24,326 nt of DNA from a virus. Within the stretch, counting starts at the first letter, position 1. The number at the start of each line of letters is the position of its first letter. The position numbers were made by a program, and so were the translations under genes. Below, piece by piece: positions 1 through 23,265 of the stretch. The stretch covers positions 1-24,326 of IMG/VR virus record IMGVR_UViG_3300036715_000275. One strand, written 5' to 3'. Below the pieces are notes generated by a model that saw only the letters and a program-made list of their open reading frames with translations, searched no databases and had not been told where the DNA came from.

Positions 1-627
1 TAAGTGTTACTGTACCCTTATTTACTACTGGAACATATACTGCATTAGTATTTGTAAATAGTGTAGGAGTTAAAGTTACTGTACCCTTATTTACTACTGG
101 AACATATACTGTATTAGTATTTGTAAATAATGTAGGGGTTAGAGTTATTGTACCCTTATTTACTACTGGAACATATAATGTATTAGTATTTGTAAATAAT
201 GTAGGAGCTAGATTTACTATACCATTATTTACTACTGGAACATATACTGTATTAGTATTTGTAAATAATGTAGGAGTTATAGTTATTGTACCCTTATTTA
301 CTACTGGAATATATAATGTATTAGTATTTGTAAATAATGTAGGAGTTAGAGTTATTGTACCATTATTTACTACTGGAACATATACTGTATTAGTATTTGT
401 AAATAGTGTAGGAGTTATAGTTATTGTACCCTTATTTACTACTGGAACATATACTGTATTAGTATTTGTAAATAGTGTAGGAGTTATAGTTATTGTACCA
501 TTATTTACTACTGGAACATATACTGTATTAGTATTTGTAAATAGTGTAGGAGTTAAAGTTACTGTACCCTTATTTACTACTGGAATATATAATGTATTAG
601 TATTTGTAAATAGTGTAGGAGTTAAAG
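1..627 (-). repeat. 69-bp direct tandem repeat array, at least nine copies, in-frame
   Basis: The string tttactactgg recurs at 21, 90, 159, 228, 297, 366, 435, 504 and 573, an exact 69-bp period. The array continues past the left edge. Each copy encodes 23 residues including TPTLFTNTNTVYVPVV on the minus strand. Copies differ at only a few bases; the most divergent stretch lies near 200-225, where the protein reads GIVNLAP instead of GTVTLTP. High nucleotide identity, including at third codon positions, points to recent duplication or homogenisation rather than only protein-level selection. Confidence 0.97.
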
Positions 628-2200
628 TTTGTACCGAAGAAACAGTAGTATAAGTTACCCTTAACTTATTTTCCTTAAATATTTGCCAAGGATTTTCTTG
701 TAAAGATCTTATTTCGCTACTACTTAGCGATCTAGTCCATCCTACTGTAAGGTGTATCTGACCTGGCCAGCATGCAGAGGAATCTCCATAGTCGGAACCA
801 ATATATCTTTTAATAGTAGGATCAGTAAAAGTAGTAGTAGCTGCTCCAAAAGTACCTGTTCCAGGTGTAGTCCCATTAGGGGTTGCAAATACACTATGAG
901 CAGTACCATTTTTTACACCAACGACTAATACTAAGTTTCCAGTATTAACTGTTGCACTTATTGATTGTTGTAATAATACTCCTGCATTATCTCTATAAGT
1001 AAACATGGCCGAGGCCGCACCAGTATCAATATATTCTATTTTATATATATCGTTACCAGAGCTACCTCTTTCTGAATATATGGCTCTACCATTAGTTCCA
1101 ATTAATGTATTACTAGGACTTGCGGCACCTGTTCCTGCAGTTGTAGTTACTAAACTTAAAATTGTACTATTATTAAGTCCGCCTAATACGGGCCCGGTTC
1201 CAAGATATAGTCCAGCTAGTGATGCCCCTGTAGTAGCATCAATATATATCGAAGAACCCCTTACAGTAGTTTGGTTTGATGAAGTTTCCAAAACCCCTAA
1301 TGTACTACTACTACTATTAACTCTAGCTAATTCTTGCTTAAGTCCGGGTAGATAGGCAAATACCATATCCTTACAAATAGGATTAGTCCAGTCAATTTTT
1401 GCTATATACTGAGGTTGTACTTTATTTACATTTTTCTTAGGCGTTATTGTAACTAGTTGATTAGATGCTGCTCCGTAGTTAGGACCTAACCATATTTTAC
1501 GTTCTTCTGTTTTAAATATTTGCCAAGGATTATCATTAAGTATCGCATACTCTGCATCACTTAATCTTCTATCCCATATTAGTATAAGGGGTACGATTGA
1601 AGATACTAGTTCTGTATCACTTTCTGAACCACCTATAGTTAGGGGTTTAGTAGCCTCAACGGCTATACTACTACCCGTTGATGTGACTGTCTGGGTATTT
1701 CCGCCGGAATTAACACGTAATTCCTTAGATACCCCGTCCCATCTAGACATGTAACTAAAAGGTTTACCTAGTGGTACACTTATGCCTGCTGTAGAATATA
1801 ATGTAGGGGCCCATATGTTAGCACGTATGGTACCATCCTCACCCGCAGGTACTTGAGCGGGTGTAAACTCCCCATCTTTTCTAATTAAAGAAATTATTGA
1901 AGTAGTAGATTGTAGCTGTTGGATTGAGAAACAGCTTATTTCTGTCCATCCACCAAATATAGACTGAACGGCGGTTGCTGCTCTTCCCCCCGATACACCA
2001 GTGGTACGTAGTCCGGTTCCTTGAGAAGAACTATCAAATCCAGAATATGTAGTAAACGGTAAGCTTTTAGTGCTAGTACCGTTTAATATAGGTGTACCAC
2101 TAGTATTCCAGTACCTTAATCCGCGAGTTAATGGATTACTCCAATTAATACTAGCTGAAGTTACTGGCTGTCTTTTTCTTATAAACTTAGAGGTTAACAA
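1..2200 (-). CDS. Large tail fibre/adhesin: two LamG-like domains plus tandem repeats (3' end beyond window)
   Basis: The frame is open from a TTG at 2200 to the left edge, giving 733 residues with no stop, so the C terminus lies outside the window. TTG is chosen because an in-frame TAG lies four codons upstream, GGAGGT sits 8 nt before it, and the next ATG is deep inside the domain. Residues about 15-230 form a beta-rich segment ending SDAEYAILNDNPWQIFK. Residues about 275-509 form a second such segment ending SSSEIRSLQENPWQIFK. That ending is typical of LamG/concanavalin-like domains in phage fibre proteins. From about residue 524 a 23-residue unit containing TPTLFTNTNT repeats at least nine times. 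Inference: an extracellular, receptor- or glycan-binding appendage with a repeat stalk, last gene of the fibre operon within view. Family assignment is from motif memory; the specific ligand is unknown. Confidence 0.85.
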   Translation of the reverse strand, partial: MLTSKFIRKRQPVTSASINWSNPLTRGLRYWNTSGTPILNGTSTKSLPFTTYSGFDSSSQGTGLRTTGVSGGRAATAVQSIFGGWTEISCFSIQQLQSTTSIISLIRKDGEFTPAQVPAGEDGTIRANIWAPTLYSTAGISVPLGKPFSYMSRWDGVSKELRVNSGGNTQTVTSTGSSIAVEATKPLTIGGSESDTELVSSIVPLILIWDRRLSDAEYAILNDNPWQIFKTEERKIWLGPNYGAASNQLVTITPKKNVNKVQPQYIAKIDWTNPICKDMVFAYLPGLKQELARVNSSSSTLGVLETSSNQTTVRGSSIYIDATTGASLAGLYLGTGPVLGGLNNSTILSLVTTTAGTGAASPSNTLIGTNGRAIYSERGSSGNDIYKIEYIDTGAASAMFTYRDNAGVLLQQSISATVNTGNLVLVVGVKNGTAHSVFATPNGTTPGTGTFGAATTTFTDPTIKRYIGSDYGDSSACWPGQIHLTVGWTRSLSSSEIRSLQENPWQIFKENKLRVTYTTVSSVQTLTPTLFTNTNTLYIPVVNKGTVTLTPTLFTNTNTVYVPVVNNGTITITPTLFTNTNTVYVPVVNKGTITITPTLFTNTNTVYVPVVNNGTITLTPTLFTNTNTLYIPVVNKGTITITPTLFTNTNTVYVPVVNNGIVNLAPTLFTNTNTLYVPVVNKGTITLTPTLFTNTNTVYVPVVNKGTVTLTPTLFTNTNAVYVPVVNKGTVTL

Positions 2201-4321: not shown

Positions 4322-5242
4322 TTAAATTTCTTCTATCTCTACCTGAGAACTATACATTTCGAAGATAGGGTGGTCAATGGCATAGATACTAGCTAGTCTG
4401 CCATATATTTGGTATAACTGCTCTTTTTCCCAATCTGTAGTATTATCGGGAAATAGGCTAATAAACATAGATTTCTGAGTACCCATTAACTTAAATATCT
4501 TATTAAGTGTAATCTTATCCGTAACAGATAAAAACTTAAGATCAAAACTAATGGTATTATACATTGCCCCAGCAGTAGTGATTAAATCTCCTGCTTCACT
4601 ACGATTACTAGTACTAAGATCTTTTACTGATGTAGATAACCCATAAGAAGTATTATATTGAGGGGACCAATAATCCCCGAGTATTAATCTAGATACTTCA
4701 ACATATTTATTAATGTTATTTGTATCTATAATTTCTATTAATACACTAGTACATGCTACCCCCGTAGGTATCCATACCCTACTATACATTTTTCTAGCAG
4801 TATAGTCTGTGCTAGTAGAAGTTATTGGGTAAAATGTATCGTTATTCCAGTTGTTAATACCTAGTGATTGATATGGATTAGCTAATACTGTACCGCTATC
4901 AAATACCTGAGTACCTGCTAAGGTACTTGTGGGAGCATCCACTGTACCTGTTAATACTGGGGCTGTGCCAGTATACCCTCTTACTCTAATAGTAGCAACA
5001 GAGGAAAGATTTGTAAACGCTAAAATAACGCATCGTACTACATTACTTGGAAAGGTAGCTACTAAATTAGCTTTACCCTGTAAGGCTATACTAGAAGTAC
5101 TAGATCTCCAAACTAAGGACTTAATATCTGTTCCTATATTAGCTATTCCGGTAGAGGTAGTGGCGCTAGAACTAGCAGTAACTACGTAAGATGGGTGTTC
5201 TGTAAGATTTTGGTATACTACTCTAAGGTTATTTTGTGCCAT
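4322..5242 (-). CDS. Conserved phage tail protein (306 aa)
   Basis: This is a complete 306-residue gene. Its ATG overlaps the upstream TAA by one base (TAATG), indicating translational coupling. The N-terminal half looks like a beta-sandwich (NLRVVYQNLTEHPSYVVTAS; SLVWRSSTSSI; RVRGYTGTAP). The middle has SRVWIP, EVSRLILGDYWSPQ and GLSTSVKD, and the C-terminal third is helical to mixed with MFISLFPDNTTDWEKEQLYQ. This combination matches a family I recall from tail regions of phages of Gram-negative, especially betaproteobacterial, hosts, where it is annotated only as a tail or structural protein. The resemblance of the first half to carbohydrate-binding sandwich modules suggests a tip or receptor-contact role, which is inference. 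Confidence 0.8.
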   Translation of the reverse strand: MAQNNLRVVYQNLTEHPSYVVTASSSATTSTGIANIGTDIKSLVWRSSTSSIALQGKANLVATFPSNVVRCVILAFTNLSSVATIRVRGYTGTAPVLTGTVDAPTSTLAGTQVFDSGTVLANPYQSLGINNWNNDTFYPITSTSTDYTARKMYSRVWIPTGVACTSVLIEIIDTNNINKYVEVSRLILGDYWSPQYNTSYGLSTSVKDLSTSNRSEAGDLITTAGAMYNTISFDLKFLSVTDKITLNKIFKLMGTQKSMFISLFPDNTTDWEKEQLYQIYGRLASIYAIDHPIFEMYSSQVEIEEI

Positions 5243-6303: not shown

Positions 6304-6660
6304 TTATTCCCTTTTTATACTATCTCTTATACGTAGTACCCAATCAGGCGCATTATGTGCTGAATCCAAAACAGAGTGAAAATCTTCCTGGAGTGTTGTT
6401 GAAGTATTAACAAATACTGCACCTTCTTCTATAGGAACAATGCCGTGCCATTGTGTTGAATCAAACTCATATATATCACCAGCTTTTAGAATCTTGTAAG
6501 TCTCTGGTAAAACATAAACAAGTATCTCTCCCTTTATACAGTGAATATTATGCTCCAGCCCGCTATTAGGTTTATGTGCGTGTGCAGGGAGTCCGGCATA
6601 CATATCTTCGCATTCATATCTGGTTGATGTTCCCATTACATCTATTTTTAGTCTATTCAT
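6304..6660 (-). CDS. Small cupin-fold protein in the fibre operon (118 aa)
   Basis: The start is ATG at 6660, one base after the adhesin stop (TAATATG). An in-frame upstream extension inside the adhesin gene encodes only low-complexity residues and is rejected. The protein shows a single cupin barrel: AGLPAHAHKPNSGLEHNIHC with HxH and a following Glu, then GEILVYVLPETYKILKAGD, then WHGIVPIEEGAVFVNT with the second His. These spacings match cupin motif 1 and motif 2 loosely, so a metal-binding site (His, His, Glu, His) is plausible. Cupins include sugar isomerases, dioxygenases and pure binding proteins, and the sequence does not say which. Its place directly behind a glycine-rich adhesin suggests a virion-associated, sugar-binding or fibre-modifying role, which is inference. 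Confidence 0.75.
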   Translation of the reverse strand: MNRLKIDVMGTSTRYECEDMYAGLPAHAHKPNSGLEHNIHCIKGEILVYVLPETYKILKAGDIYEFDSTQWHGIVPIEEGAVFVNTSTTLQEDFHSVLDSAHNAPDWVLRIRDSIKRE

Positions 6661-6661
6661 A

Positions 6662-7243
6662 TTAGGTATATTTGAAAATAATCTTACCAGTAAAGCCGCC
6701 TGTGCGATCCACATTAGAGCCATCAGAGCCACCGTGGCCACCAGCATTACCAGTGCCATTAGTTCCAATAATACCTGCACCGCCTGCACCACCACTGCAA
6801 ATCGTGCCATTTGCTCCAGCGTTTCCGGTTGTATTAGTAGTATTACCACCTGAAGAAGTACCTCCGCTATTACCGGAGCCATTTGCAGTTGTACTAGCAT
6901 TTGCACCAGTATTACCACCATTACATGACATTGAAGTTATGGTAAATGTTCCACTTACGATTGTTGATACTCCTGTTCCTGTACCGATAGTATAGGTCAT
7001 TGTTTGACCACCGATCGCTGCAATAATAGTTTTGCTATATCCACCCGACCCAGAACCACCACCAGCGTGCGTCGTACAACCGATAGTATTACCAGAGCCA
7101 CCAATAGGTGTACTACCCCACATTTCTATGGTTAGTGAAGTTGCGCCGAGCGGGATAGTTTCAGTAGCAGATGTCCCAGTTGTATATGTATGGATGACAG
7201 GTGTGTAACCGCCCGACATTAAAATACCCATAAAGCCACTCAT
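6662..7243 (-). CDS. Glycine-rich tail-tip adhesin (193 aa)
   Basis: This is a complete 193-residue gene whose ATG overlaps the fibre stop by one base (TAATG). A short N terminus (MSGFMGILMSGGYTP) leads into a domain with ATETIPLGATSLTIEMWGS and GGSGSGGYSKT. Then comes a long Gly/Ser/Thr/Asn-rich region (about residues 105-180: SGNSGGTSSGG, AGANGTICSGGAGGAG, AGGHGGSDG), ending GGFTGKIIFKYT. This is the pattern of phage glycine-rich tip domains, in which glycine repeats build a rigid scaffold with exposed variable loops that bind the receptor (as described for T-even-like gp38 adhesins). Three cysteines are spread through the Gly region. The base composition is clearly higher in G+C than the surroundings, suggesting acquisition from another phage. 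Receptor unknown. Confidence 0.8.
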   Translation of the reverse strand: MSGFMGILMSGGYTPVIHTYTTGTSATETIPLGATSLTIEMWGSTPIGGSGNTIGCTTHAGGGSGSGGYSKTIIAAIGGQTMTYTIGTGTGVSTIVSGTFTITSMSCNGGNTGANASTTANGSGNSGGTSSGGNTTNTTGNAGANGTICSGGAGGAGIIGTNGTGNAGGHGGSDGSNVDRTGGFTGKIIFKYT

Positions 7244-9273
7244 TAGGATAACCCTGTTCCGCTTGAAATAGCTACGGTAGAAGACTGGAAGAAGATAGTT
7301 GCAATACCATATCCTGCTAGTGTTCTATTACCTGTAGTTGCTGACCCCGCTAAACGAAGTGTTGTTACGGTTGCTGTAATGGTGATTGCTGATGCAGTAG
7401 TGTTGAAGATAGTTACTACATCACCCGCCGCCATTGTGCTGTTAGGTACGGTTACACCAGCAGTAGCCATAACAATCTTGCCCCTATCTGCTGCTACGAA
7501 AGCACCAGTAGTTACGGAAGCAGTTGGTAATCCTTTATAACCTAGTTCATTAGCGGAACCATCCTGAATGATACCAGTATTAGTAATCTTCATTTGAACG
7601 GATGAAGATGTTATAAAGTTCATATGACCATTCAGGTCATTAGATAGGGTAATATCGTCATTTGATCCGCTTCCGTAGCCCAGATATCCCTTGCGACCCG
7701 TTGGGTCATAGAAGGACATAAATAATTGACCTGATCCGCGTGCAACTGTAGTTTCGAATCTCGCTATTTCATTCGCTGATTTAGTATGTAGTCTTACTAC
7801 TGGTACTGCGGCTATACCAATATTACCAGCAGCATCGATCCGCATGCGCTCAACTAGCGAACCGCCGGTAGCAAATAGTAGACTCCCGGTTACCGCCGTA
7901 ATCCCGAAGTCGCCTGCCGCGGCACCTGATACGGCACCCTGTCCAATATAACTATTGGACGTAAACGACGAGGTAGAGAGTCGTAATATAGTACTGCGAA
8001 CATCAAGCCCATAGCTCGGAGCTATACCAATACCAACATTACTACTAAATAAAGTATCCCCGTTTGCATATATTCTTACTGCTTCAGTAAGAGAGGTATC
8101 AGTTTGCACTCGTCTGGTTGTAAATACTAAATCTCCAGTAGTATTTCCACCACCACCAGTTGTAAATCCCCTAATAGCAGCAAAACTTGTTACACCTGCA
8201 CCAAATACTATACCACCTCCGCCGCCACCTTGTTGGTTATCATTACTGGCAATGTGTAATAGGCCTAACCTTGACCCTGCATCCGTAATATTAGCCACCG
8301 CTTGACAAGTTCCATTGGCTATTACAGTTAGTGTAGTAATAGGAGAAACCCCTATACCTACTTTACCAGCAGAATCAATTCGCATACGCTCTAAAGAAGC
8401 ATTAGTAGCAAATAGTAAGCTACCTGTATCAACACGCACTGCAAAATCACTAACTGCTCCGCCAGTTACTAAGGTAGATCCTTTACCTATCATCCCGGTA
8501 TAAGTACCATCCTGCATAATTGTATAGTTGCCATATACAGTTAATTTGGGTCCTCCAGAGGTAGCCCCTACAGTACCAAACCCTAAATTACCATCATTAC
8601 TTATATTAAAATCATCAACCCAGGCCCCTGTAGTACCTCGCTGAATCTTAAAAGCTCCCGCCGCAAGAGAAGAAGGGTTATTAGAGTTAGTTATTTTATA
8701 ACCATAAAACCCTGATGCTGAGTATCCTAAGTGTATGTCTGCGTCTACAGTACTACCTGTAGTATTATTGATTACGTCTAGTTTAGCCCGTGGAGTGGTT
8801 CCGCCTATAAATAAATTACCAGAGGAGTCAATACCTGCTTTCTGAGTACCACCAGTATAAAATAGTACTTGGGAATTAGCTAGTAGCAGTGTAAGACCAC
8901 CAGATATAGCATTATCTACGTCACCGTAGTATAATGAATTACCTCCACTTAATAGGGCTATACGTCTAGCAGTACCCCCTGAATCTTTCCAGGAAATATC
9001 TGTAGTGTTAGCCATTACTACCCCACCTGTAAGACTACCCCCAGTTAACTGTAAGTAACCAGTAACTAAATCAACCCAGGAAGATGTAACCCATTGCTGT
9101 AACCTACCTGTTGCACTGTTATATCTTTTAATCCCATTATTAGGAGTACCTGTAATGGTAACATATGTAGGATCTAACCATTGCGCTACACCTACTGTAT
9201 TATTAATAATGGCAGGTGTATATGCTGTGCTATAGTTATCACTAGTAGCTGGGTGTGTAAAATCAATTGCCAT
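7243..9273 (-). CDS. Tail fibre protein with ERMRID/VGIG beta repeats (676 aa)
   Basis: This is a complete 676-residue gene with AGGGG before the ATG, which follows the previous stop directly. The N terminus (FTHPATSDNYSTAYTPAIIN) and the LQLTGGSLTG segment are typical of fibre shafts. Degenerate repeats with the pattern ER-MRID-x-GxVGIG occur near residues 148 (GIDSSGNLFIGG), 293 (ERMRIDSAGKVGIG), 395 (EAVRIYANGDTLF) and 475 (ERMRIDAAGNIGIA). Such repeats form trimeric beta-structured shafts in phage fibres. The C terminus (TITATVTTLRLAGSA, ISSGTGLS) is beta-rich, and no intramolecular chaperone domain is seen. The C-terminal third, roughly below 8040, is notably G+C-richer than the N-terminal part, consistent with exchange of the receptor-facing end. 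Downstream coupling to the adhesin by TAATG suggests the two act together. Confidence 0.85.
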   Translation of the reverse strand: MAIDFTHPATSDNYSTAYTPAIINNTVGVAQWLDPTYVTITGTPNNGIKRYNSATGRLQQWVTSSWVDLVTGYLQLTGGSLTGGVVMANTTDISWKDSGGTARRIALLSGGNSLYYGDVDNAISGGLTLLLANSQVLFYTGGTQKAGIDSSGNLFIGGTTPRAKLDVINNTTGSTVDADIHLGYSASGFYGYKITNSNNPSSLAAGAFKIQRGTTGAWVDDFNISNDGNLGFGTVGATSGGPKLTVYGNYTIMQDGTYTGMIGKGSTLVTGGAVSDFAVRVDTGSLLFATNASLERMRIDSAGKVGIGVSPITTLTVIANGTCQAVANITDAGSRLGLLHIASNDNQQGGGGGGIVFGAGVTSFAAIRGFTTGGGGNTTGDLVFTTRRVQTDTSLTEAVRIYANGDTLFSSNVGIGIAPSYGLDVRSTILRLSTSSFTSNSYIGQGAVSGAAAGDFGITAVTGSLLFATGGSLVERMRIDAAGNIGIAAVPVVRLHTKSANEIARFETTVARGSGQLFMSFYDPTGRKGYLGYGSGSNDDITLSNDLNGHMNFITSSSVQMKITNTGIIQDGSANELGYKGLPTASVTTGAFVAADRGKIVMATAGVTVPNSTMAAGDVVTIFNTTASAITITATVTTLRLAGSATTGNRTLAGYGIATIFFQSSTVAISSGTGLS

Positions 9274-10908: not shown

Positions 10909-12485
10909 TAGATTAATACTCCAACATCTACTAATCCAGTAGACCAATCAGGGCTAAGAGAAACTACTTGCCCTGTTTTACCTGCGGATAGACCGAATCT
11001 AGTATGTACTAAACTTACTGGTTGTCCTAATTTTAAGGATAATAACTTACTACGTCCTGTGAAGGAATACGTTGTTTTAATTACTCCATAAAAATTATTC
11101 AGTCTAATTGCTTCATTAGAGGCGTCTGCTGTGGCAATTAATAGGGTATCCTTCTGTACTGGATCCCCGTTTAATTTATATAAGGTTTTAACCCCTGTAC
11201 TATCTAATGAAGTATATGTATACCACTCTTCACTTAAAGCATCCTTATTACTTTGTTGTATTTGTGTAGTAAGATTGCTTTGTACCGTCCAATTTTTAGC
11301 ATATCCAAGTTTTTTAGCTGCTATAATTGTTGATCTATTAGATATACTTAAACTACCTGAAATAATATCACTATTAGTAATAGTAACACTAGTATCTGTA
11401 GTAGATACTCCATATTTAATTAATTGTAATTTACCTTTTCTAGTAAAGTACATTTGCGCGCTAATACTTTCAGCTAATTGCTGACATACATCTAACACAT
11501 TTTCTCTATCTAATACTGCAAAACCTACTGGCTGAGTATTAGCAGATGCAAAAGCTGCTAAATTTACTAAATCTAATTCAGTTGCCCCATCTAATTTAAC
11601 GCCAGATATGGTGGAACCATATTGCGTAGTAATTAATGCAATTAGGTTAGCTATGTTATTACCATAAGTAGTTGTTTGTAGTGCTCCAGTAGTTAGGTTA
11701 ATAGATTTATTAACTCCTTGTACTGACATAGTACACTGACCCACTAACGGACTAGTAAGTACAAACTTACCATTGGCATTATCTAATGTTGCCCCAGTAG
11801 TTAGTACTCCTGAAGTATATAAGGGTACTCCATTGTCCCGTATTTCAGTAACCCCCTCACATACACCATCATTACTCATGTACTGTAAAATAGAGGGGTC
11901 TATTAATAGTGGCTCAATGTTGTGTACTTCACCAAAAATAATAGGTTTAATAGTATCTTTATTACTTTGCCCACCGTTCCAGGTACCATAAGTACCTAAC
12001 TTATTTTCTGTAAGTGGGTTATTAAGTCTCTGCATCTTATCGCGAATCTTAATATTAATAGTAGTTCTATCTTTAGAGTCTATATCTGCAACTACACCGC
12101 TATATATAAGTTCAAAATTTCCTGCGTAAATAGCTGCCTCATTAGCATATGCCCAAGTAGGGTCCCCATAGTATATATTAATAGACCTATTAACCCATAC
12201 ATATTTAGTATTATCAAGCCAGTCATCATACTGACCATTATTATTATTAATACCTATATCTCCGTAGGAGATACTAACACCGCCTTCTTCGGCTAACTCT
12301 TCTGTAAACTTGAGTCCACTAGTTAGTATAGGTAAGAATGAAATATCTCCACTAGTAGTAGTATACCCGGTACTAGAAAGATATTTAAATGTTTCAGTTG
12401 GGGGAGACACCTGATATACGCCTACTACTATGAGAACGCAGCGTCTAGCGCTGGTATTCTCCAGCCAGTCTTGGTATACGGACAT
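10908..12485 (-). CDS. Tail-tip / baseplate hub-like protein (525 aa)
   Basis: This is a complete 525-residue gene with TGGAG five to six bases before the ATG, and a strong promoter about 30 bases further upstream. The N terminus has YQDWLENTSARRCVLIVVG, a pattern I recall from phage tail proteins encoded just after the tape measure. Later stretches include TINIKIRDKMQRLNNPLTEN, IKPIIFGEVHNIEPLLIDP, a helix LDVCQQLAESISAQMYFTRK and a C-terminal LGQPVSLVHTRFGLSAGKTG. These are consistent with the hub fold of phage tail-tip proteins (beta-barrels plus a helical linker). It replaces the several genes that lambda uses between tape measure and J, and no NlpC/P60 peptidase is encoded here. Function as the central hub sealing the tube is inferred from position and pattern. 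Confidence 0.8.
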   Translation of the reverse strand: MSVYQDWLENTSARRCVLIVVGVYQVSPPTETFKYLSSTGYTTTSGDISFLPILTSGLKFTEELAEEGGVSISYGDIGINNNNGQYDDWLDNTKYVWVNRSINIYYGDPTWAYANEAAIYAGNFELIYSGVVADIDSKDRTTINIKIRDKMQRLNNPLTENKLGTYGTWNGGQSNKDTIKPIIFGEVHNIEPLLIDPSILQYMSNDGVCEGVTEIRDNGVPLYTSGVLTTGATLDNANGKFVLTSPLVGQCTMSVQGVNKSINLTTGALQTTTYGNNIANLIALITTQYGSTISGVKLDGATELDLVNLAAFASANTQPVGFAVLDRENVLDVCQQLAESISAQMYFTRKGKLQLIKYGVSTTDTSVTITNSDIISGSLSISNRSTIIAAKKLGYAKNWTVQSNLTTQIQQSNKDALSEEWYTYTSLDSTGVKTLYKLNGDPVQKDTLLIATADASNEAIRLNNFYGVIKTTYSFTGRSKLLSLKLGQPVSLVHTRFGLSAGKTGQVVSLSPDWSTGLVDVGVLI

Positions 12486-12511
12486 TTTATCTCCATTCTA
12501 ATTCTTGCTTT

Positions 12512-12540
12512 ATTATACTATATGAGCACCTAACAGTCAA
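12512..12540 (-). promoter_or_regulatory. Strong sigma70-type promoter before the hub/fibre operon
   Basis: On the minus strand TTGACT (12540-12535), exactly 17 bases, then a perfect TATAAT (12517-12512). It lies downstream of the tape-measure terminator and about 27 bases before the hub ATG, giving a short leader. It should drive the operon down to 4022. Confidence 0.88.
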
Positions 12541-12561
12541 GGGTAGATTTTATTTGCCCAC

Positions 12562-12592
12562 AAAAAACCCCGCGTTTTACGGCGGGGTTTTT
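12562..12592 (-). terminator. Rho-independent terminator after tape-measure gene
   Basis: On the minus strand AAAAACCCCGC pairs with GCGGGGTTTTT around an 8-base loop, ending in six Ts. It begins 14 bases past the tape-measure stop and separates it from the hub operon promoter. Confidence 0.92.
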
Positions 12593-12605
12593 ATTATTAC
12601 ATACC

Positions 12606-15600
12606 TTATGAGGTATAATCGTAGAAAGTATTTCTACTAGCCCACTCTGCAGATACAGCGGTTGCATCTGCTAGTGCTTTTTGAGCTGCAATTAATTGGT
12701 TTGTTGTGTCTTGTGTTATTTGTAACATATGTGCAGTTTGTAGGGTTTGCTCAGCTCTTAATGCTTCCATTTGATCATTAAGAAGTTTAACTTGATTAAC
12801 TAATAAAGCATTACTAGTTGCTAAGGTAATATCTTGAGTTGTCATATTAGGAGCATTAGGATCTGTTATTTTTACATCTGTTGTACTAGTGGCTGTTAAC
12901 GGAGCAGCTATTCCTAGATTAGCTACAGTAACCATAGACATTAAATCTGTAAAGATTGCTGTCATACCCTCAGTTAATTGTTTAAATATCGCATCTGGTA
13001 ATACATAGTCAGTATTTGTAGCATTAGCAGAACTAGCTGCTATATCTGCAGCATACATAGTACCTTGTAATATCACTAGTTGTTGTAGTAACTCAGCTGT
13101 AGTTTGTGTAGCACTCTCGATAAATCCTAGAGAGGATACACTAGCATCTAGAGCTTCTAGTTGTTTTTCTGCATCAGATTGTTGTGCGTCTAATACAGTA
13201 CCTGTAGAGCTAATTAAGTCTAGTACAGTATTAAAGTCTTGGGTATATTTTTCTGAGCTTGCGTAGATTATTTGACTTGCTGCTAGGAATGCATCTGTAG
13301 CTGCTGGAAGTTGATTAATTGCTGCTTGCTTATCTGATTTCTCAGCTTCAGTAGTAGCAATGCTATTAGCTAGATCTGCGACTCTTAGTGCTTCGGCTTT
13401 AGTAGTTTCATACTTAGCTTGAGGATCTAAGGTACTCTTATCGCCTTCTTTTAGTGCTGTCTTGTAGGCTGCTAATGCTTTCACAGAATCTTTAAGTCCT
13501 GTAATAGTAGTTTTGATAGCAGAGGACTCTTTATCATAAGCTGTTTTAAGTTTAGCTTTTAGTGCTGTTTCATCCTGTAGTCTATATATACGTGACTTAA
13601 GCGCTGCATCTGCTGCACTTAATCCCCTGATTTCAAGCTTTCGCTTGGCATTTAGGGCACCTGTAGCATCGCCTGTAGCTTCCATTAATTGAATCAATAG
13701 ATCATCAGTCTTAGCCTTATCTTGGGCTGCATAGGTAGCTAATTTAGTGATTTTCTCTGAATCAGTTAGAGTACGAAGCTCTAACTGTCTATCTACTTGT
13801 AGCGCTTCGTAAGTTGCGCCTATTGCAGATAATAGTGCAGATTCAGATTTAATTGCTACTAACCTATCTTCTAGTTGCCATATATACTGCTTACCTGCGC
13901 GTAAAAGTGGGTCTAGCTGGGATAATTCATCTGCTCTACTTAATGCTAGAGCATCTGATACCTTATCTAGTAGTTTTAATGTATCAATTTGTTGTGATAG
14001 CTGAGCTTTAGCTAGCTCTTCTGCTGTTAGTGTTTTACGAGTTTCTGCATGTACCTCAGCGAAAGCATCCGATACGTTTAGTAAATCTGCGTATAGTTGC
14101 TGAGCTGCTGGATTAGTTAGGTCTAATGACTTGACTACCTTTGCAAATTGTTCGCGAGTGGTAATCAGCTGCTCCCCTGTTTTTACATTTACTAATTTTA
14201 ACCTAGTCATTTCATCATTAACAGCCTTAGTAACTGGTGCCAGTTGCTCTGCTGCAGTTAGGAAGTTGGTTTTGAAATTATCTGTCTTAGTTAGGAAACT
14301 ATCAATACCACCAGTTAGTTTTAGTAGATGCTCTACAGAATCCACCTTAGCTACACCAGTTAGAGTATTTATGGACATACCAATACTTGTAAAGGCAAGA
14401 TCGGTAAGCTGTATATCTCTAGCCAAACGTACAATAGTAGTACCGAACTCTTCGCCTAATTTTCTAAAGCCTTCTAGTTCTGGAAACGCCTCTTTAGCCG
14501 CCGCATTAAATGCTATACTAATTTCTCCACTAATAGCTGCAGCTAGTTCCTCTGGTTTAAGCCCTAAGGAAGATACCTTAAAATCTGGTACGAACGATTC
14601 GACAATTTTCGTAGTTAATTCTTTATCTTTACCTAAAGAGGTACTTGCTTCTATTAAAGTATCTTTAATATTACCGAACATAACACCAATAGCTTCTGCT
14701 ATTGGTTTATCTAATTTAGTAAACTTAGTATCATTGGAAATCTTATCGCTTTTAAATAGGCCACCACTTACTTTAGTTTGTACATTAGTATATACCTGTG
14801 CTAATTTAGAGGCCCCTGTGCTAATAGCAGCAATAGTATCATTAATAACAATACCTTGATCCTTTAGTTCAGTAGTGGTTTTTCCACCAAATATACCTGT
14901 AAAGATTTTAGACCCCAATTTCCCTATTCCGCTATCTTTACCAAATATCGCACCTAGAACACCGTACTGACCACCTGTAACCCCTGTAACCCCTGTTTTA
15001 ATCTCCTTATTAGATATAGAATTTACATTACCAATACCTGCAGAAATTAGTAACTGCGCTAGATTATTAGTATTTTCTTTAATACTTCTAAGACTATCTA
15101 ACATTTTATTAGAGAATTCTAGATTCTTAAAACTATGATCTTCAATAAGTTTAATAGAGTCATCAATAGACTTAGCAATAGCTGTACTATCTCCCATTAC
15201 TCCGCCAGCGCGATCTACTATTTCTCCCTTAGCGTTATACTGTTGTCCCGTACCCTGCACCTTCTGCTGGTCCGCAGCAGAGAATCCAGCACTTGGGGCA
15301 CCCTTGGTTCCGCCACCAAAAGACTTACCTAGTAAGGATGCCATAATACCAATCATGGCGGCCCCTGTTATGAAATCTAATGGGAAAGGTGCTGCAAAAG
15401 CAGCAGTAATAGCAGCAAGAGCACTGGAGCCTGCTTTAGTAATATTGGATTCTACAACAGGTGCAGTTGTAAATACCGCAACTGCTGCTTCCTTTATCAT
15501 AGCAGCAATTTTAGCTATATGGATAGCTTTTTCTACTGCAGCTGCTGCTTTATACGCAAAGGTTTTCTCCTTAAATAAACCTTTAGTAGCTCCAGCAATA

Positions 15601-18600
15601 GCAGCCATATCAGATAATTGTGCCTGAGTATTTTTAGACTCTAATTTACCCTGTTCTTTAGTAGTTTTAGATAGCTCTGTATTAAATAGCCTCTTATCTT
15701 TATTATCATTATCGGGGTTCGCTAAATCAGCTCGGGCTTTGCCCTCATCCTTAATAAGTTGAATTTTATTAGCTGAGTAGCCCTCGTCTCTTTCGGCCAT
15801 CTTAGCGAAAACAGATACCAGTGTACCTAAGGATGTCCCTATCTTACCGAAACTAGCTCCTAAAGAATTAGTTAGATCATTGATATTTTTAATTAGATCT
15901 GCTTGCTCGGCTAATTTTTGGTTCTGTGCATCTAACTGAATAAGCCTATTAGTACTAGCAGAATTCTCTGCGGCTAAAGCGGAAGCTCTAGCCGCAAATA
16001 TTCCTTGTTCTGTAGTAGCTTTATCTTTTACTGCGGCTACCGCAGTATCAGCATTAGCTAATCCTGCAGCTGCAGCAGGCTGATCTTGAGGAGCTGCAGC
16101 AGCTAATTTAGCCTTAGCCTCATTCTGAAGTCTGATAGTTTCAGCTAAGGCAGCATTAGTTAGTGTAATTGCGGCTAATCTTTCTGCCTCTAATGAAATA
16201 CTCTCTCTAGTAAATTTACGTGCTAAAGCTGCTAACTCTATTTCTGTACTCTTTCTTGATAACTCTGTTTCAGATATAGTACCTAAAGCTTTTCTATTAG
16301 CTAATTCTGCTTGAGCTTCAGAAGCTTGGGAAGTTGCGGCACTATCTAAGGCATCCTGTAATTTAAGAGCATTAGTAACAGCCAGTGCAGATTTTGCTGC
16401 CTCTCCTGAGGCGCTTCTTTGTCTAGCTATAGAGGCTGCTTGTTCTGTGGCCGATAGTTTTTCCGTTGCTAGTAATACTTCTTCCTTATTAAGTTTAATA
16501 ATTTTAGCAGTTAACTCTTCTTTATTAACCTTATCTGCCGCATCTAGTATACCTTTTTTATTTAAAGTATCTAGAGCTCCCTGTGCGATTAATTTATCTT
16601 GCTCTAAGGCGGCGCTTTTCTTAGCATACTCATTATTTAATAACTGAGTATCTAGAAGTTCTTTACTACGCTCTAAGGTAGAATCATACGTTCCTACTAT
16701 CGATTGTAAATTACTTAACTCATTTTGCTGTACTTTTATACTTCTATTATCTAGTTCTAGTTTTTCTGAACTTTCCTTAGTTGCTTCTCTAATTTTATCT
16801 GCCTGTAATTTTAAAAGTACGTTAAGTTTCTGGGCAGCAGCGGCGGCTAATCCACCTTCCATACCTCTGGCATCCTCTGCAGCACCTCTTAATATTAATG
16901 CTGCCCCTCCCTGTATAGCATTACTATTTTCCTGAGCCTGCGTACGAGGACCTATTTTATTATTATATGTAGTAGCAAATCCTCTTTGTTGTGCTAGTAC
17001 TGCTCCAGGACCTTTAGCCAGTGTTAAAGACGCTTCTGCATTAGCTTTAATAGAAATAGATAATGTGGCTAGTTTATCAATAATTGCTGCTTGCTCTGAT
17101 TCGCTAAGTTTATCAAATCTAGGTATATCGGCCCTTTTGGCCTCTAATGCTATTTTTTCTCTTGATAGGATATCTGCTTCTACTTTTAGACTTAGACCTG
17201 TTAATGCTTGTGTATTAGAATACTTAGCCTTAATATCCTGAATCTGTAAATCAATAGCTTTATTAGCTAATACGGCATCTGCTTCTGCAGTATTTCCACC
17301 TATAGATCTAAGAATATCTACATAACCCTTAGCTGCAAGAATAGATGCCTCTCCTAAGGCTTTAGTTAAGCCTTTTTCAGCGTAGTCTATTCCTTTTGCA
17401 AAGATTTGTGTACCAACACTAGCAAACTCTTTTATTATACTTCTTTGCTTAGATTCTAACTTACTTAATTCCTCATTAGTTTGGTTAGCTGCTGAAGCAG
17501 TTCTATCTGCTACTTCTTTATCCTGCTTAAATTTAGTACTTTGTACAACTATATCATCTATACCCTTTTTTCCAGTAAAATTGGATGCTAAAACTGAGGC
17601 AGCAGTGGCAGCAGTGGCATTATTTTTAGATGCTGCTGCTCGTACAGCAGCTAGTTCTTGTCCTAAAGCAGCTAAAGCATCCTTGCTTTTAGCTAGCTTT
17701 AAGGCAGTATCTTCTGGTAAAAATGATAGTGTTTTTAAATTTCCCGCTAATGATATTAATTCTGTTAGTCCGTTAATAGGGTCTTTTAGAGCGGTATCTA
17801 TTTTAGTACTCCCCTCTATCAAACTGGTACCCAGTTTACTGAAAGGATCGGTTAATTTATTACTAATAGTTAAATTATCGAATTGTTTATTGATTTCTGC
17901 TACAGCCGCAGCAGCCGATACTAATGCAGCCCCTGTAGCCTTACCTGAGCTACTGATTTTGTCTAAAATAGGGGTTACGTCTTTAGCTTTGCTTTTAATT
18001 ACAGACTCATCTAAATCTTTAATACTGGCGTTTACTTCTTTGAAATTACCTAAATCTACTTTTTGCCCTAAGATTCCCTGTAATGTACGTTTAGCCTCTT
18101 CTTTAGCAGGGCCCTCCGACATAAGATTTAGAGATTCTACTATGGTACTAGATAGAGAGGCAGATAACTTATCAGCATCACTTTTACCGACAAAATCAAA
18201 TAGCCACTTATCCCAGAAACTCTCCCACCCACTTTGTGCTGCCTTTAACTTATCGAATTTTGTTAATAGAGTACCAAAAGCACTAGTTAACTCATACATA
18301 GCTACAGCTTTAGCATTTACAGACTCTACGCTTAATTGTCCTAATAGGTCTTTTTTACTTATAGCTTCTAGAGTATTGACTGCTCCCTTTGCTGCTTCTT
18401 GTACTGTGTCAAAAGCACCTTTAAATGCCTCCGCTTCTTTAGTAGCTGTAGATGCTAGATAGTCTACTACCTGGAAAGCTATAGTAATTAATCCAATAAT
18501 TCCAAATAGGTTACCTAAAGAAACGGCTAGAGTAGATACCGCAGTTGTTACAATTGCTAAACTACCGCGTACTACAGTCGATGCTGCAGCAAAAGCTGTC

Positions 18601-20255
18601 ATCCTTGGTCCACCGGCCTCAAAAGCTCCATTAACTAAATTAATACCTTCTCGTGCTTTTCCAACAGTATCAAGTAGTTTAATAAAACTATCTCTAATAC
18701 CTGCTACAGGTAGGGTTTCTGCTATACTACCTAAGATTGTACTTTGTTGTGCTTTTGCCTGGGCATTATCTGCTATCCTATTTCTAGAAGCATCTTGTCC
18801 TAAATACTTTGCGGTTCTAGTGAATATATTAGAGGGTGACTCTCTCTCTAGTTTTTCAATTTTTTGTCTATTTTCATAGAAGTCTCTATATTCTTTGGCT
18901 AGATTTTTAATAGCTAGACCTTCTAGGTGTACTCTATCTAATGTATCCTGGCTACCTTTAGCCTGTGCTAAACTGAAACTTTCTCGGGCAGCCGCCTGTT
19001 TATCTAGGGCATTAATCTGCTCTATTGTAATATCAGACATGTCTTCTTTTAAAAGCTTATTAGTTAGTCTAGATTTCCCTTTAATACCGTCTAGTACTTC
19101 TCTAGCACTACTTATTCTATTTATAGCCTGCTCTTCCTTAGCATATAATCCCGCATCTGCTCTAATAACCTGAGCCTTACGTAATTCATTAGCGGCAATA
19201 GCCGTCTTATTTGCAGCAGCAGCAGAATCTATCAGACCCTGTCTCCATTGACCTAAGGCGGGTAGAGCCTGCTTCAGTAACATTGAAGCAACTCCCCCTA
19301 TCGCTACAGTTAGTGCTATGGGATTACTAGATAAAATATTAACTATAGGCCCTAATACTGTATTGATTAAAGTTAGTCCCGTTTGGGCTAGATTTTCAAT
19401 ACTAGCTAGTAATTTAGCATAGGGGTTAGTGTCAATATGAATAGACCCGAATTTCTTTTCTGCCTGATCTAATGTAGCGTTTGTGAAGGCCTGCTGTTTT
19501 TCAAAGTCTGTTAGTGAGGCTACTGTCTTACCTATTTTTCTAGCATATTCTGAGTGTGCTTCACCTACTTTAACAATAATACCTAATTCGTCTAATAGAC
19601 GCGGCTGTTGTTTAGCTATACCTAGGGTTAGACGTTCGATAGCATTAGGCATATCAAAGCCCATTGCTTGCGAAGCATTTTTAGCTGCAGCACCTATACG
19701 TAATATATCTGATGCAGCAATCCCGCTAGCGCTAGCTCTAGCAGTTGCAGTTATAGCGTCCTTCATTGATAGGGCACCATCTGTGGCAGCATTTAGTTGT
19801 TTAGATAGGGTGCCCAGGGCTTGCCCTGAGGCTGCTCCGATTTGGTCTAGACCTTGTACTAAGTGGGCAGTATTCACTGCATTTGATAGCGCAGTAAATG
19901 CAGTACTAATAGCGTATAAGTTAGCAGCAAATGTAGCATAGACGTGAACTAGACCACCAAGACCCGCTGCCTGTGCTGCAAAGTCTTTAGCCCCAGCCCC
20001 TGTGTCTCCTATAGTCCCACGAGCTAAATTAGAGTCTGCTGCTGCGGATGATCTATAATCACTAGAAGATGCTTTGGTCGTCTTTGTTGCTGAAGACGCA
20101 GCTACCCCTTGTTGAGCAGCCTGAGTGGGTAAGGGAATTCTTGCGGCCGCCTGAGCGCCCTCAAGAGTTTTCTTTAATTTTAAGGCCTCATTATTTACTT
20201 TAGCGGTACTACCATTGTCCGTTACATCTACATTTACTTTTACATTCTCTGCCAT
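12606..20255 (-). CDS. Tail tape-measure protein (2549 aa)
   Basis: This is a complete 2549-residue gene with AGGAGA four bases before the ATG. It is by far the largest gene, between the frameshifted chaperone and the tip genes, which is the standard tape-measure position. The N terminus (MAENVKVNVDVTDNGSTAKV, then helices) is followed by very long Ala/Lys/Glu/Gln-rich coiled-coil regions. Hydrophobic segments lie near residues 305-330 (NPIALTVAIGGVASML), 580-605 (LFGIIGLITIAFQVVDYLA) and 1585-1645 (AAFAAPFPLDFITGAAMIGI, followed by a Gly-rich turn); these are the type that may insert in the host membrane during DNA ejection. The ruler sets tail length and is chaperoned by the gpG/GT-like proteins encoded upstream. 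No muramidase or peptidase motif was recognised. It has its own promoter and terminator. Confidence 0.95.
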   Translation of the reverse strand: MAENVKVNVDVTDNGSTAKVNNEALKLKKTLEGAQAAARIPLPTQAAQQGVAASSATKTTKASSSDYRSSAAADSNLARGTIGDTGAGAKDFAAQAAGLGGLVHVYATFAANLYAISTAFTALSNAVNTAHLVQGLDQIGAASGQALGTLSKQLNAATDGALSMKDAITATARASASGIAASDILRIGAAAKNASQAMGFDMPNAIERLTLGIAKQQPRLLDELGIIVKVGEAHSEYARKIGKTVASLTDFEKQQAFTNATLDQAEKKFGSIHIDTNPYAKLLASIENLAQTGLTLINTVLGPIVNILSSNPIALTVAIGGVASMLLKQALPALGQWRQGLIDSAAAANKTAIAANELRKAQVIRADAGLYAKEEQAINRISSAREVLDGIKGKSRLTNKLLKEDMSDITIEQINALDKQAAARESFSLAQAKGSQDTLDRVHLEGLAIKNLAKEYRDFYENRQKIEKLERESPSNIFTRTAKYLGQDASRNRIADNAQAKAQQSTILGSIAETLPVAGIRDSFIKLLDTVGKAREGINLVNGAFEAGGPRMTAFAAASTVVRGSLAIVTTAVSTLAVSLGNLFGIIGLITIAFQVVDYLASTATKEAEAFKGAFDTVQEAAKGAVNTLEAISKKDLLGQLSVESVNAKAVAMYELTSAFGTLLTKFDKLKAAQSGWESFWDKWLFDFVGKSDADKLSASLSSTIVESLNLMSEGPAKEEAKRTLQGILGQKVDLGNFKEVNASIKDLDESVIKSKAKDVTPILDKISSSGKATGAALVSAAAAVAEINKQFDNLTISNKLTDPFSKLGTSLIEGSTKIDTALKDPINGLTELISLAGNLKTLSFLPEDTALKLAKSKDALAALGQELAAVRAAASKNNATAATAASVLASNFTGKKGIDDIVVQSTKFKQDKEVADRTASAANQTNEELSKLESKQRSIIKEFASVGTQIFAKGIDYAEKGLTKALGEASILAAKGYVDILRSIGGNTAEADAVLANKAIDLQIQDIKAKYSNTQALTGLSLKVEADILSREKIALEAKRADIPRFDKLSESEQAAIIDKLATLSISIKANAEASLTLAKGPGAVLAQQRGFATTYNNKIGPRTQAQENSNAIQGGAALILRGAAEDARGMEGGLAAAAAQKLNVLLKLQADKIREATKESSEKLELDNRSIKVQQNELSNLQSIVGTYDSTLERSKELLDTQLLNNEYAKKSAALEQDKLIAQGALDTLNKKGILDAADKVNKEELTAKIIKLNKEEVLLATEKLSATEQAASIARQRSASGEAAKSALAVTNALKLQDALDSAATSQASEAQAELANRKALGTISETELSRKSTEIELAALARKFTRESISLEAERLAAITLTNAALAETIRLQNEAKAKLAAAAPQDQPAAAAGLANADTAVAAVKDKATTEQGIFAARASALAAENSASTNRLIQLDAQNQKLAEQADLIKNINDLTNSLGASFGKIGTSLGTLVSVFAKMAERDEGYSANKIQLIKDEGKARADLANPDNDNKDKRLFNTELSKTTKEQGKLESKNTQAQLSDMAAIAGATKGLFKEKTFAYKAAAAVEKAIHIAKIAAMIKEAAVAVFTTAPVVESNITKAGSSALAAITAAFAAPFPLDFITGAAMIGIMASLLGKSFGGGTKGAPSAGFSAADQQKVQGTGQQYNAKGEIVDRAGGVMGDSTAIAKSIDDSIKLIEDHSFKNLEFSNKMLDSLRSIKENTNNLAQLLISAGIGNVNSISNKEIKTGVTGVTGGQYGVLGAIFGKDSGIGKLGSKIFTGIFGGKTTTELKDQGIVINDTIAAISTGASKLAQVYTNVQTKVSGGLFKSDKISNDTKFTKLDKPIAEAIGVMFGNIKDTLIEASTSLGKDKELTTKIVESFVPDFKVSSLGLKPEELAAAISGEISIAFNAAAKEAFPELEGFRKLGEEFGTTIVRLARDIQLTDLAFTSIGMSINTLTGVAKVDSVEHLLKLTGGIDSFLTKTDNFKTNFLTAAEQLAPVTKAVNDEMTRLKLVNVKTGEQLITTREQFAKVVKSLDLTNPAAQQLYADLLNVSDAFAEVHAETRKTLTAEELAKAQLSQQIDTLKLLDKVSDALALSRADELSQLDPLLRAGKQYIWQLEDRLVAIKSESALLSAIGATYEALQVDRQLELRTLTDSEKITKLATYAAQDKAKTDDLLIQLMEATGDATGALNAKRKLEIRGLSAADAALKSRIYRLQDETALKAKLKTAYDKESSAIKTTITGLKDSVKALAAYKTALKEGDKSTLDPQAKYETTKAEALRVADLANSIATTEAEKSDKQAAINQLPAATDAFLAASQIIYASSEKYTQDFNTVLDLISSTGTVLDAQQSDAEKQLEALDASVSSLGFIESATQTTAELLQQLVILQGTMYAADIAASSANATNTDYVLPDAIFKQLTEGMTAIFTDLMSMVTVANLGIAAPLTATSTTDVKITDPNAPNMTTQDITLATSNALLVNQVKLLNDQMEALRAEQTLQTAHMLQITQDTTNQLIAAQKALADATAVSAEWASRNTFYDYTS

Positions 20256-20309
20256 GACTTCTCCTATAGCATACCCTGAAGTAATTACGTCAAGATTTAT
20301 CGATTGCTA

Positions 20310-20338
20310 ATTATAACACGTATGCAGTATCATGTCAC
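20310..20338 (-). promoter_or_regulatory. Sigma70-type promoter before tape-measure gene, extended -10
   Basis: On the minus strand GTGACA (20338-20333), 17 bases, then a perfect TATAAT (20315-20310) preceded by TGT, an extended -10. It sits just past the chaperone terminator and about 55 bases before the tape-measure ATG. The weaker -35 is offset by the TGN element. Confidence 0.78.
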
Positions 20339-20358
20339 CCCTATTTTTTTGTAGGTAC

Positions 20359-20395
20359 AAAAAAGCCCCTGTAAATTTCTTTACAGGGGCTTTTT
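20359..20395 (-). terminator. Rho-independent terminator after chaperone genes
   Basis: A perfect 16-bp stem on the minus strand, AAAAAGCCCCTGTAAA with TTTACAGGGGCTTTTT, has a 4-base GAAA loop and six Ts. It starts one or two bases after the stop of the chaperone's second reading frame. Confidence 0.95.
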
Positions 20396-20396
20396 A

Positions 20397-21246: not shown

Positions 21247-22722
21247 TTAAGCTGAGAAATAGCGAATACTAGCGTAGTTTGTTGAGCCTAGATCATATGA
21301 AGCAGTAGCTGTTGTCTGATCTGATAGTGAACCTTGCGCATTGAAGTTAATAGTTGTAGATACAACTCCTGACGTTTCGATAGTAGGAATAGATAACATG
21401 CAGCCATCCATCTCAACTTCTACACGGTTAGTGTTTGTAAGACCACCAATATCAATTTCCATACGGTACTTAGTTTCTACACCTGACGCCGTGCTAACGG
21501 ACGCAAGGATAGCGGCTAGTAAGGCCCCGGTACCTGTTACACCAGCACCAGTATTCATGTAAGCAGTAACGCTTCCAGAGATTGCTAGGTTACCTGTGTA
21601 ATAACTAATAGGTAGGTTAACAACACCGATATTAGCAGGAGTTACATACGAAATATTATTGTTGAAAGTAATACTTCCGCCAGTTAAGGCTAGGGTATAT
21701 GTTGTACCACCAACACCACCGATATTACTAATAAGTTGAGCGGTTGATAACTTATTAGTTAAATAGTTAGCTGTAGTTACTTTACCTACTGCAGTTCCTG
21801 CGATACCGCCTGTCATAGTAACGTTACCGCCCCCGTCTACCATAGTAGTACCGACTAGGTTTCTAATAGCTGTAGCATTACCGGACCATTGAATAGACGC
21901 AATACCATCTAGTCCAAAGTCAATAACTGCTTGATTAAGGGCACAGTTATCAAGTACATAAGTAGTTTGATCTACTGAAATAATCATACCGAAAGGCTGT
22001 AGCTGATTAACGTTAGAACGAGCTGTAGTAGCCAGTGCATAAGCTGCTGGTTTCGCAGTATCTGCTGCAACTGCGGCGTTCTGTGTCCATGCACTAGCGC
22101 TTAAAGTAGCAGTTGAAGCAGTAGTTGAAGGTGTAGTACCTGCACCAAATGCTGGTGCTGTAGAGAATTCACCAACTATAGTAGTTCCTGATACTGTAGT
22201 AATCTTGAACGGAGAGTTCCACTCATTAGCAAATGTACCAGTTAAGCCACCCATTACTAGTACAACACCTGCAGCTAGTGTTACACCCTGTACTGTGGCA
22301 GGAATTACTGTACCAACCATGGTGAATACACCTGTATTAGTAGTAGCACGAGTTAATGCAGTACATGTAGCAGATACTGCAGTAGTATTTAGTGCCTGTG
22401 CGTTAAATAATGCATTCCATAAGAAGCTTTCTTCAGCTAGTACACTACCAGATAGGCGCGGACGAATATATGTAGTGAAACTAAAGTCAACTGGTGCTAA
22501 TGACGAGTTGAAATTACGCTGACCACGAGTTGGGTTGATACCTGCTTCACTTACTGAAATAGTATCACTATTTGTTGATTGTGAGAACGAGAAACCGTCT
22601 AGAACTTGTAATTCCGAAGTATTAGCAATACCAGGAGTTCCGATAACAGTACTTCCTGCTGATACAGCAGAAATATTAGTCGTGAAGAATACTCGACTAT
22701 TACGTACTAGATTTAATGCCAT
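21247..22722 (-). CDS. Major tail tube protein (491 aa)
   Basis: This is a complete 491-residue gene with AAAGGAA six bases before the ATG. The N-terminal part has VLDGFSFSQSTNSDTISVSE, GINPTRGQRNFNSSLAPVDF and SFTTYIRPRLSG, a pattern I recall from phage tail-tube proteins. The C-terminal part has TKYRMEIDIGGLTNTNRVEV, EMDGCMLSIPTIETSGVVST and a final YASIRYFSA. Between them, at about residues 113-215 and 275-400, are Ala/Thr/Gly-rich beta segments that make it larger than typical ~200-350-residue tube proteins. Position (tail terminator, tube, terminator, chaperone, tape measure) agrees. It would polymerise as hexameric rings around the tape measure and should be the most abundant tail protein. 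Confidence 0.88.
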   Translation of the reverse strand: MALNLVRNSRVFFTTNISAVSAGSTVIGTPGIANTSELQVLDGFSFSQSTNSDTISVSEAGINPTRGQRNFNSSLAPVDFSFTTYIRPRLSGSVLAEESFLWNALFNAQALNTTAVSATCTALTRATTNTGVFTMVGTVIPATVQGVTLAAGVVLVMGGLTGTFANEWNSPFKITTVSGTTIVGEFSTAPAFGAGTTPSTTASTATLSASAWTQNAAVAADTAKPAAYALATTARSNVNQLQPFGMIISVDQTTYVLDNCALNQAVIDFGLDGIASIQWSGNATAIRNLVGTTMVDGGGNVTMTGGIAGTAVGKVTTANYLTNKLSTAQLISNIGGVGGTTYTLALTGGSITFNNNISYVTPANIGVVNLPISYYTGNLAISGSVTAYMNTGAGVTGTGALLAAILASVSTASGVETKYRMEIDIGGLTNTNRVEVEMDGCMLSIPTIETSGVVSTTINFNAQGSLSDQTTATASYDLGSTNYASIRYFSA

Positions 22723-22824: not shown

Positions 22825-23265
22825 TTACATTATCTGGTATCTAATTAGTAAGTTAATCTCACCGACACCATAGGGAATAAGTATTCCCTCGTCTGTAACT
22901 ATCGAGCTTATATTAACCTCGGCAGTTTTATAGTTGTTAGTGGCATCATATACTAATACACCGTGTAGGCTATCAATTACTGTTTCTACATCCTCTAGTA
23001 GATCTTCTAGTAATTGTAAGGCATCTTCCCCTTTAGTATACACTTTTAATGATACGTTTAAAAAGCCCCAAGCAAATGCTGAGGGTAAATATTCTCTGGA
23101 CTCTCCGCCTGCTACAACGTAAATACAGGGGAAATCGCTTACTTCATCCCAGAATTTAAGTTTAGCATATGAGTTACTGGTTATATTTGATTTATAACCA
23201 GTAGACCCATCAATTACTTTAAATTTCTCTGCTAAAGCTTTTACTATACTTGTTCTACGACTCAT
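22825..23265 (-). CDS. Tail terminator-like / neck protein (146 aa)
   Basis: This is a complete 146-residue gene; the ATG overlaps the upstream stop as ATGA, indicating coupling, and no good Shine-Dalgarno is present. The N-terminal helix (SRRTSIVKALAEKFKVIDGS) is followed by FPCIYVVAGGESREYLPS, AFAWGFLNVSLKVYTKGEDA, LQLLEDLLEDVETVIDSLHG and a final beta segment. The alternation of an alpha helix, a central sheet with an acidic helix, and the size fit the gpU-like tail terminator fold that caps the completed tube. It lies between a neck-type gene and the tube gene, exactly where phages encode this function. A head-tail completion protein is the alternative. Assignment rests on layout and general pattern, not a diagnostic motif. 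Confidence 0.75.
   Translation of the reverse strand: MSRRTSIVKALAEKFKVIDGSTGYKSNITSNSYAKLKFWDEVSDFPCIYVVAGGESREYLPSAFAWGFLNVSLKVYTKGEDALQLLEDLLEDVETVIDSLHGVLVYDATNNYKTAEVNISSIVTDEGILIPYGVGEINLLIRYQIM

Follow-up and report, generated by a model that had tools for sequence, protein, structure and literature searches.

The tandem array at the edge of the analysed DNA (24,326 b, an entire public record; hereafter the window) is probably the repetitive C-terminal segment of a LamG tail adhesin or minor tail protein, which recombines by whole units and acts over the long term as a joint between modules. We propose that it represents a phage repeat of 22-23 residues that is widespread but has no name; in the window it lies on the C-terminal side of a LamG-bearing tail protein. 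The repeat probably forms a rod-like, beta-rich segment, with two short strands predicted in each unit. Homologous recombination or slippage during replication could add, remove or homogenise whole units. Because neighbouring 69-bp units have almost the same sequence and share one reading frame exactly, such changes would leave the gene unbroken. Whole-unit change was seen in relatives; for the window it is suggested by low synonymous divergence and by a reticulate pattern of sites. In the longer term the repeated stretch may exchange N-terminal anchors and C-terminal tails, as mosaics in relatives suggest. The segment could act in a putative receptor-binding protein as a spacer or for display, with a possible effect on host interaction. 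Phage tail proteins decide which bacteria get infected, and the way they diversify has been an open question for a long time. A repeat that is uncatalogued, joined to many modules and present in arrays that differ by whole units between near-identical phages offers a concrete case in which a recombination joint is visible and testable.

The array occupies the 3' end of a putative tail adhesin gene

Tandem Repeats Finder detected one array in the window, at positions 6-629, with a period of 69 and 9.0 copies; matches amounted to 93% and indels to 0%, for a score of 1059. Reading of the units placed nine in-frame 69-bp units with the core LFTNTNT at 2..622 on the minus strand. Each unit is translated into 23 residues of the form TPTLFTNTNTVYVPVVNKGTITI, and the units lie at 554-622, 485-553, 416-484, 347-415, 278-346, 209-277, 140-208, 71-139 and 2-70, with minus-strand starts at 622, 553, 484, 415, 346, 277, 208, 139 and 70. 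The in-frame, nine-copy, 69-bp array described in the initial annotation was thus borne out by both the program and the unit coordinates. The array forms the 3' end, in frame, of a minus-strand ORF at 2..2200 (733 aa, TTG start assigned mechanically) encoding a putative tail adhesin or minor tail protein, the 3' end of which is incomplete at the contig edge. Nine units is a lower bound, the ORF being open at the edge one base beyond unit 9; the further copies that the initial annotation placed past the left edge would lie outside the record. A plus-strand frame at 3..653 (216 aa) is simply the antisense of the repeat.

The ORF carries a laminin-G/concanavalin A-like domain (Laminin_G_3, PF13385, E 7.2e-08, score 33.2 over a cut-off of 27.6) at 710..1093 on the minus strand. 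An NPWQIFK hinge comes next, and the array after it. A first LamG-like segment, read from the translation, spans 1510..2200 on the same strand, ends in NDNPWQIFK and is probably a duplicate of the second. The minus-strand stretch 657-2200 contains the LamG-like segment twice, both copies ending in NPWQIFK, which suggests a domain duplication adjoining the array. The LamG domain lies within the N-terminal two thirds of the protein, and the array begins shortly after the second hinge. PHROG profile 8501 ('minor tail protein') matched the window repeats (phrog_8501, E 1.8e-12) and those of a relative, L002 (E 8.8e-14), although E-values on repeats are inflated.

The minus strand of the window encodes a siphovirus-like tail module made of a tail completion protein, a tail terminator (22825..23265, phrog_3907), a major tail protein (21247..22722, phrog_3575, E 4.7e-51), tail assembly chaperones, a 2549-aa tail tape measure protein (12606..20255, phrog_3779 and phrog_7740) and fibre-like proteins. 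The LamG/concanavalin-like domain therefore sits in a tail-module gene, as a LamG tail adhesin would. The term 'fibre gene' used initially is plausible, given the tail module, the LamG domain and the 'minor tail protein' match.

The window units were probably expanded or homogenised recently

Among the nine copies, between 1 and 8 of the 69 bases differ; pS is 0.074 and pN 0.067. The window pS, 0.073 in the family-wide comparison, was the lowest among about 50 family arrays, the comparison taking in arrays with at least five units; the others ranged from 0.27 to 0.78, many of them lying between 0.6 and 0.78. Synonymous codon-pair difference in the window was 0.064, against a mean of 0.54 and a minimum of 0.42 in 2000 simulations of the same proteins with the codon usage of the window contig. 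All four gametes were found at 7 of 10 informative site pairs, and adjacent units were not more alike than distant ones (P 0.39). Both observations fit repeated exchange between units, although the array has only five informative sites and recurrent mutation could also give four-gamete failures. Recent expansion or homogenisation of the window array by recombination is well supported by the low pS, the far higher codon mismatch in simulation and the four-gamete failures. These data uphold the initial proposal of recent expansion or gene conversion, for which a comparison of synonymous and non-synonymous differences had been suggested.

The array has a GC content of 27%, and an AT-rich codon bias might by itself make copies alike whatever their age. 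The simulation ruled out this source of similarity, since the codon usage of the contig predicts a mismatch of 0.54. Moreover, base composition is not the cause because AT-rich relatives are still diverged (L039, 32% GC, pS 0.65; L065, 36% GC, pS 0.77). We therefore regard codon constraint as an extremely improbable account.

The array lies exactly at the record edge, as happens when an assembler breaks in a repeat, and many other family contigs likewise end within arrays. The contig might thus end in a collapsed or expanded repeat with an unreal copy number. The differences of 1-8 bases between units argue against periodic duplication of one read, and the same type of array recurs in over a hundred further contigs and in the complete genome of an isolate, Pseudanabaena phage Pam2. 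An assembly artefact is accordingly very unlikely.

The array belongs to a widespread and uncatalogued repeat family

The family has the consensus LxPxL[FY]TNTNTFYxxTVxxGxVT over 22-23 residues. It was present in at least 128 IMG/VR contigs (two-unit profile search; 80 retrieved), in one bacterial genome contig (Mesorhizobium sp. Root157, L092), which is probably the same prophage as L047, and in phage Pam2, matched via a diverged family query. The core LxPx[LR][FY]xNTN[TS]FYxxxV is kept across units at a spacing of 22 or 23 residues (23 in every window unit; 22, 23 and their sums in most relatives); the NTN core belonged to the search pattern, and its full invariance is partly built in. All nine window units have the LFTNTN core, with V or L preceding Y where relatives mostly show F. 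Unit number across the family ranges from 2 to over 20. The repeats are joined to differing N-terminal modules, among them LamG in the window and a LamG-like segment placed in the same order in L088.

Searches of Pfam and NCBIfam gave no match above the curated cut-offs over the window repeats and no model for the repeat, and a search for TNTNTFY found no paper in the library covered. When INPHARED was queried by megablast and tblastn with the entire window or with the array protein, nothing matched, for which the low-complexity filter is perhaps partly responsible. The repeat thus appears to be an uncatalogued, unnamed and widespread phage repeat.

A close counterpart is Pam2_68 of Pseudanabaena phage Pam2 (ON014754), annotated only as a hypothetical protein. 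It contains the same 22-23-residue repeat as the window (hhalign probability 98%) and adjoins tail genes. Unlike the window protein, its repeats run from the N-terminus, no LamG domain was seen and its C-terminal segments differ. Gp24 of Mycobacterium phage Brujita, a minor tail protein, itself consists of repeats of about 21 residues with a P-x-V pattern, and its length (132 aa, against a profile of 133 positions) and name suggest that it belongs to PHROG 8501. Direct hhalign comparison of the TNTNT profile with gp24 gave a non-significant probability of 1.4%. Other repeats of roughly 20-25 residues were seen in unannotated proteins of Microcystis phage Mwe-JY26 and Roseobacter phage CRP-6 (L095:2699-5203 and L096:3335-4603), with the patterns I.DGDTFG...G.VTV and FNQDQTFEPVELATG; they are possible distant analogues. 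The resemblances to Brujita, the Microcystis phage and the Roseobacter phage are weak, and we do not take them as evidence of homology.

The array might also be a neutral spacer, a tolerated and easily slipping linker of irrelevant length in which the similarity of copies is a by-product of slippage. Such a linker would account for the near-equality of pS and pN in the window, for the wide range of unit numbers and for the many different modules that flank family arrays. In relatives, however, pN lies well below pS (for example 0.13 against 0.37 in L080), and the N-T-N-T-F-Y core and the 22/23-residue register are conserved even between very different phages, with the reservation made above on NTN. 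We consider a purely neutral spacer somewhat unlikely.

Across the family (L002-L091), synonymous differences were below expectation at the three Thr codons of the TNTNT core (ratio 0.51-0.72), a pattern that exchange tracts with the core at their centre might produce. The Asn codons of the same core showed no such reduction within family arrays. We do not claim a DNA-level signal at the repeat core, since the Thr codons show a reduction but the Asn codons none.

Unit number differs between close relatives by whole units

Whole-unit differences were found in the lineage L014-L031, represented by ten contigs with the whole gene and an eleventh, L018, which begins two codons inside the gene and has a complete array. 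Nine units were present in 9 of these 11 contigs and eight in L017 and L018. Compared with L020, L018 shows a single 69-nt gap in the array plus 7 substitutions over about 2 kb, and L017 a single 69-nt gap in the array plus 17 substitutions over about 2.5 kb. The unit-allele strings of this lineage (KBLMPQGHJ, KBLMSOGTJ, KBLMNOGHJ, ABLMQGHJ and KBCPQGHI) show shuffling, and in several cases a unit is an exact mosaic of two other units; one of these, u10, lies 10 nt away from each parent. In a second lineage, the genes of L068 and L081 are otherwise similar but differ by 46 aa (two units), the DNA being about 95% identical from the array rightwards.

The relatives are metagenome assemblies, probably from short reads, and mis-assembly of repeats is the main caveat to these counts. 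Recovery of the same 9-unit haplotypes in several metagenomes argues against mis-assembly of the 9-unit forms; each 8-unit form comes from one contig.

Unit number was fixed within the near-identical groups L050/51/52, L058/59, L065/66, L072-75 and L089-91, and most family arrays are near synonymous saturation, indicating that unit turnover is not fast everywhere. The initial suggestion that copy number varies between isolates therefore holds in part: relatives vary in the L014-L031 lineage (eight against nine units) and between L068 and L081 (two units), yet five near-identical groups keep a fixed number.

The window phage itself occurs in at least three metagenome records, namely the window, L107 and L108. 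L107:3946-14300 and L108:391-13467 share 99.98-99.99% identity with the right part of the window (11250-24326) across 10.4 and 13.1 kb. They stop short of the array, L107 at window position 13972 and L108 at 11250, the latter being the end of the L108 stretch compared. L107 also runs 3.9 kb beyond the right edge of the window. Neither full record contained a match to the window array. Scans of viral contigs for exact sequence patterns taken from the array and from its flank gave no match, although the window's own record may lie outside those scans. Whole-unit change in copy number for the window phage is supported by analogy with the relatives described above.

Arrays in relatives join different N- and C-terminal modules

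In the relatives, two short N-terminal types (FGF and MPLP) were each found with the C-terminal types NDVRP, EELPR and GGGGED, covering all six combinations. L072 and L020 share 94% identity over a stretch that starts within the C-terminal coding region and extends 1.8 kb downstream of it, and the N-terminal module of L072 does not match that of L020. Upstream and into the array, L072 is instead 81% identical to L068. As a looser case of exchange, jelly-roll-like and AFQ N-termini share a C-terminal segment. Recombination within the array or next to it would be expected to leave such mosaics in these relatives. In relatives the array's clearer candidate role is that of a site where recombination brings different N- and C-terminal modules together, a role absent from the initial annotation. 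The scheme draws on the relatives, the C-terminal end of the window protein lying past the contig edge.

A bolder version of this idea would see in the TNTNT array a dedicated, mobile recombination joint, common to otherwise unrelated tailed phages, which swaps adhesin anchors and tips by homologous recombination through the conserved core, varies protein length and amounts to a general, unnamed system for diversifying phage tail proteins. We find this extension rather doubtful.

The repeat is predicted to form a beta-rich segment

AlphaFold2 models of the window array contained two nine-residue strands per unit with a pLDDT of about 90. The diverged natural array of L058 gave the same strand pattern with a pLDDT of only 60-70. 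Over-prediction of beta-solenoids from near-perfect repeats is a known tendency of AlphaFold2 (PMC11795689). Foldseek searches of PDB and BFVD found no confident match to the predicted array. The proteins matched by VIA-align were for the most part beta-helical or otherwise rich in beta structure (top Z 17.4, the next, at 14.0, being the HxuA secretion domain), and for repeats such matches may reflect just a common arrangement. In a beta-solenoid, the coil rises by about 0.5 nm per unit. If the array is a solenoid, a single unit would have little effect on reach because each adds only about 0.5 nm.

This estimate bears on the proposal that the array is a device for host range or reach, with copy number under selection and tuning fibre length or avidity. 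The number of units does differ between near-identical relatives, a LamG-type domain adjoins the array, and a passage of PMC2248197, citing Tetart 1996, describes duplications in the T4 adhesin and in the tail fibres of the Xanthomonas phages OP1, Xp10 and Xop411 that change host range. On the other side, if the predicted solenoid is right, the increment of a unit would be too small to alter reach much, and the near-equality of pS and pN among the window units gives no sign of selection on their differences. Tuning of reach, fibre length or host range by copy number is therefore possible by analogy, but a selected device of this kind seems quite unlikely.

Comparison with known systems

A recombining C-terminal array in a tail protein would have several precedents. 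The T4 and Xanthomonas duplications resemble TNTNT arrays in being in frame, inside a tail fibre gene and different in number between close relatives; their effect on host range was observed, whereas the TNTNT arrays are known here from sequence. In crAssphage, tandem repeats of BACON domains are tail-associated, grew in number through internal duplication and were also passed on by horizontal transfer (PMC6949934). A tail association is likewise proposed for the window array, but each BACON unit is a folded domain of much more than 23 residues, and their order is conserved in the main crAssphage lineage. In the distal tail fibre of T-even phages, recombination between conserved motifs swaps adhesin specificity, according to a passage in PMC6466182 citing Tetart 1998. 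Short conserved intragenic motifs thus act as exchange points for adhesin modules there, as proposed for TNTNT arrays; the T-even motifs are scattered and lie in a different protein, while the window has a tandem array. Antireceptors of Streptococcus thermophilus phages contain collagen-like repeats between the domains of the receptor-binding protein (PMC5601072). They share with the window the placement of short repeats between domains, but theirs are Gly-X-Y repeats with another fold. By analogy, the TNTNT case would work like the crAssphage, T4/OP1 and T-even systems, the recombining element being an uncatalogued short repeat.

Other features of the tail module

The protein encoded at 4322-5242 had no relative in the viral contigs searched. 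A separate putative tail fibre protein is encoded at 7243..9273 on the minus strand (phrog_9942 and phrog_18345) and contains repeated segments of the type 'RMRIDSAGKVGIG', as in many phage fibres. In the adjacent minus-strand region (6304-7243), a glycine-rich ORF at 6662-7243 overlaps an ORF at 6304-6921. The first half of the latter resembles an out-of-frame reading of the glycine-rich stretch and its C-terminal half looks cupin-like; its true start is therefore probably near 6650.
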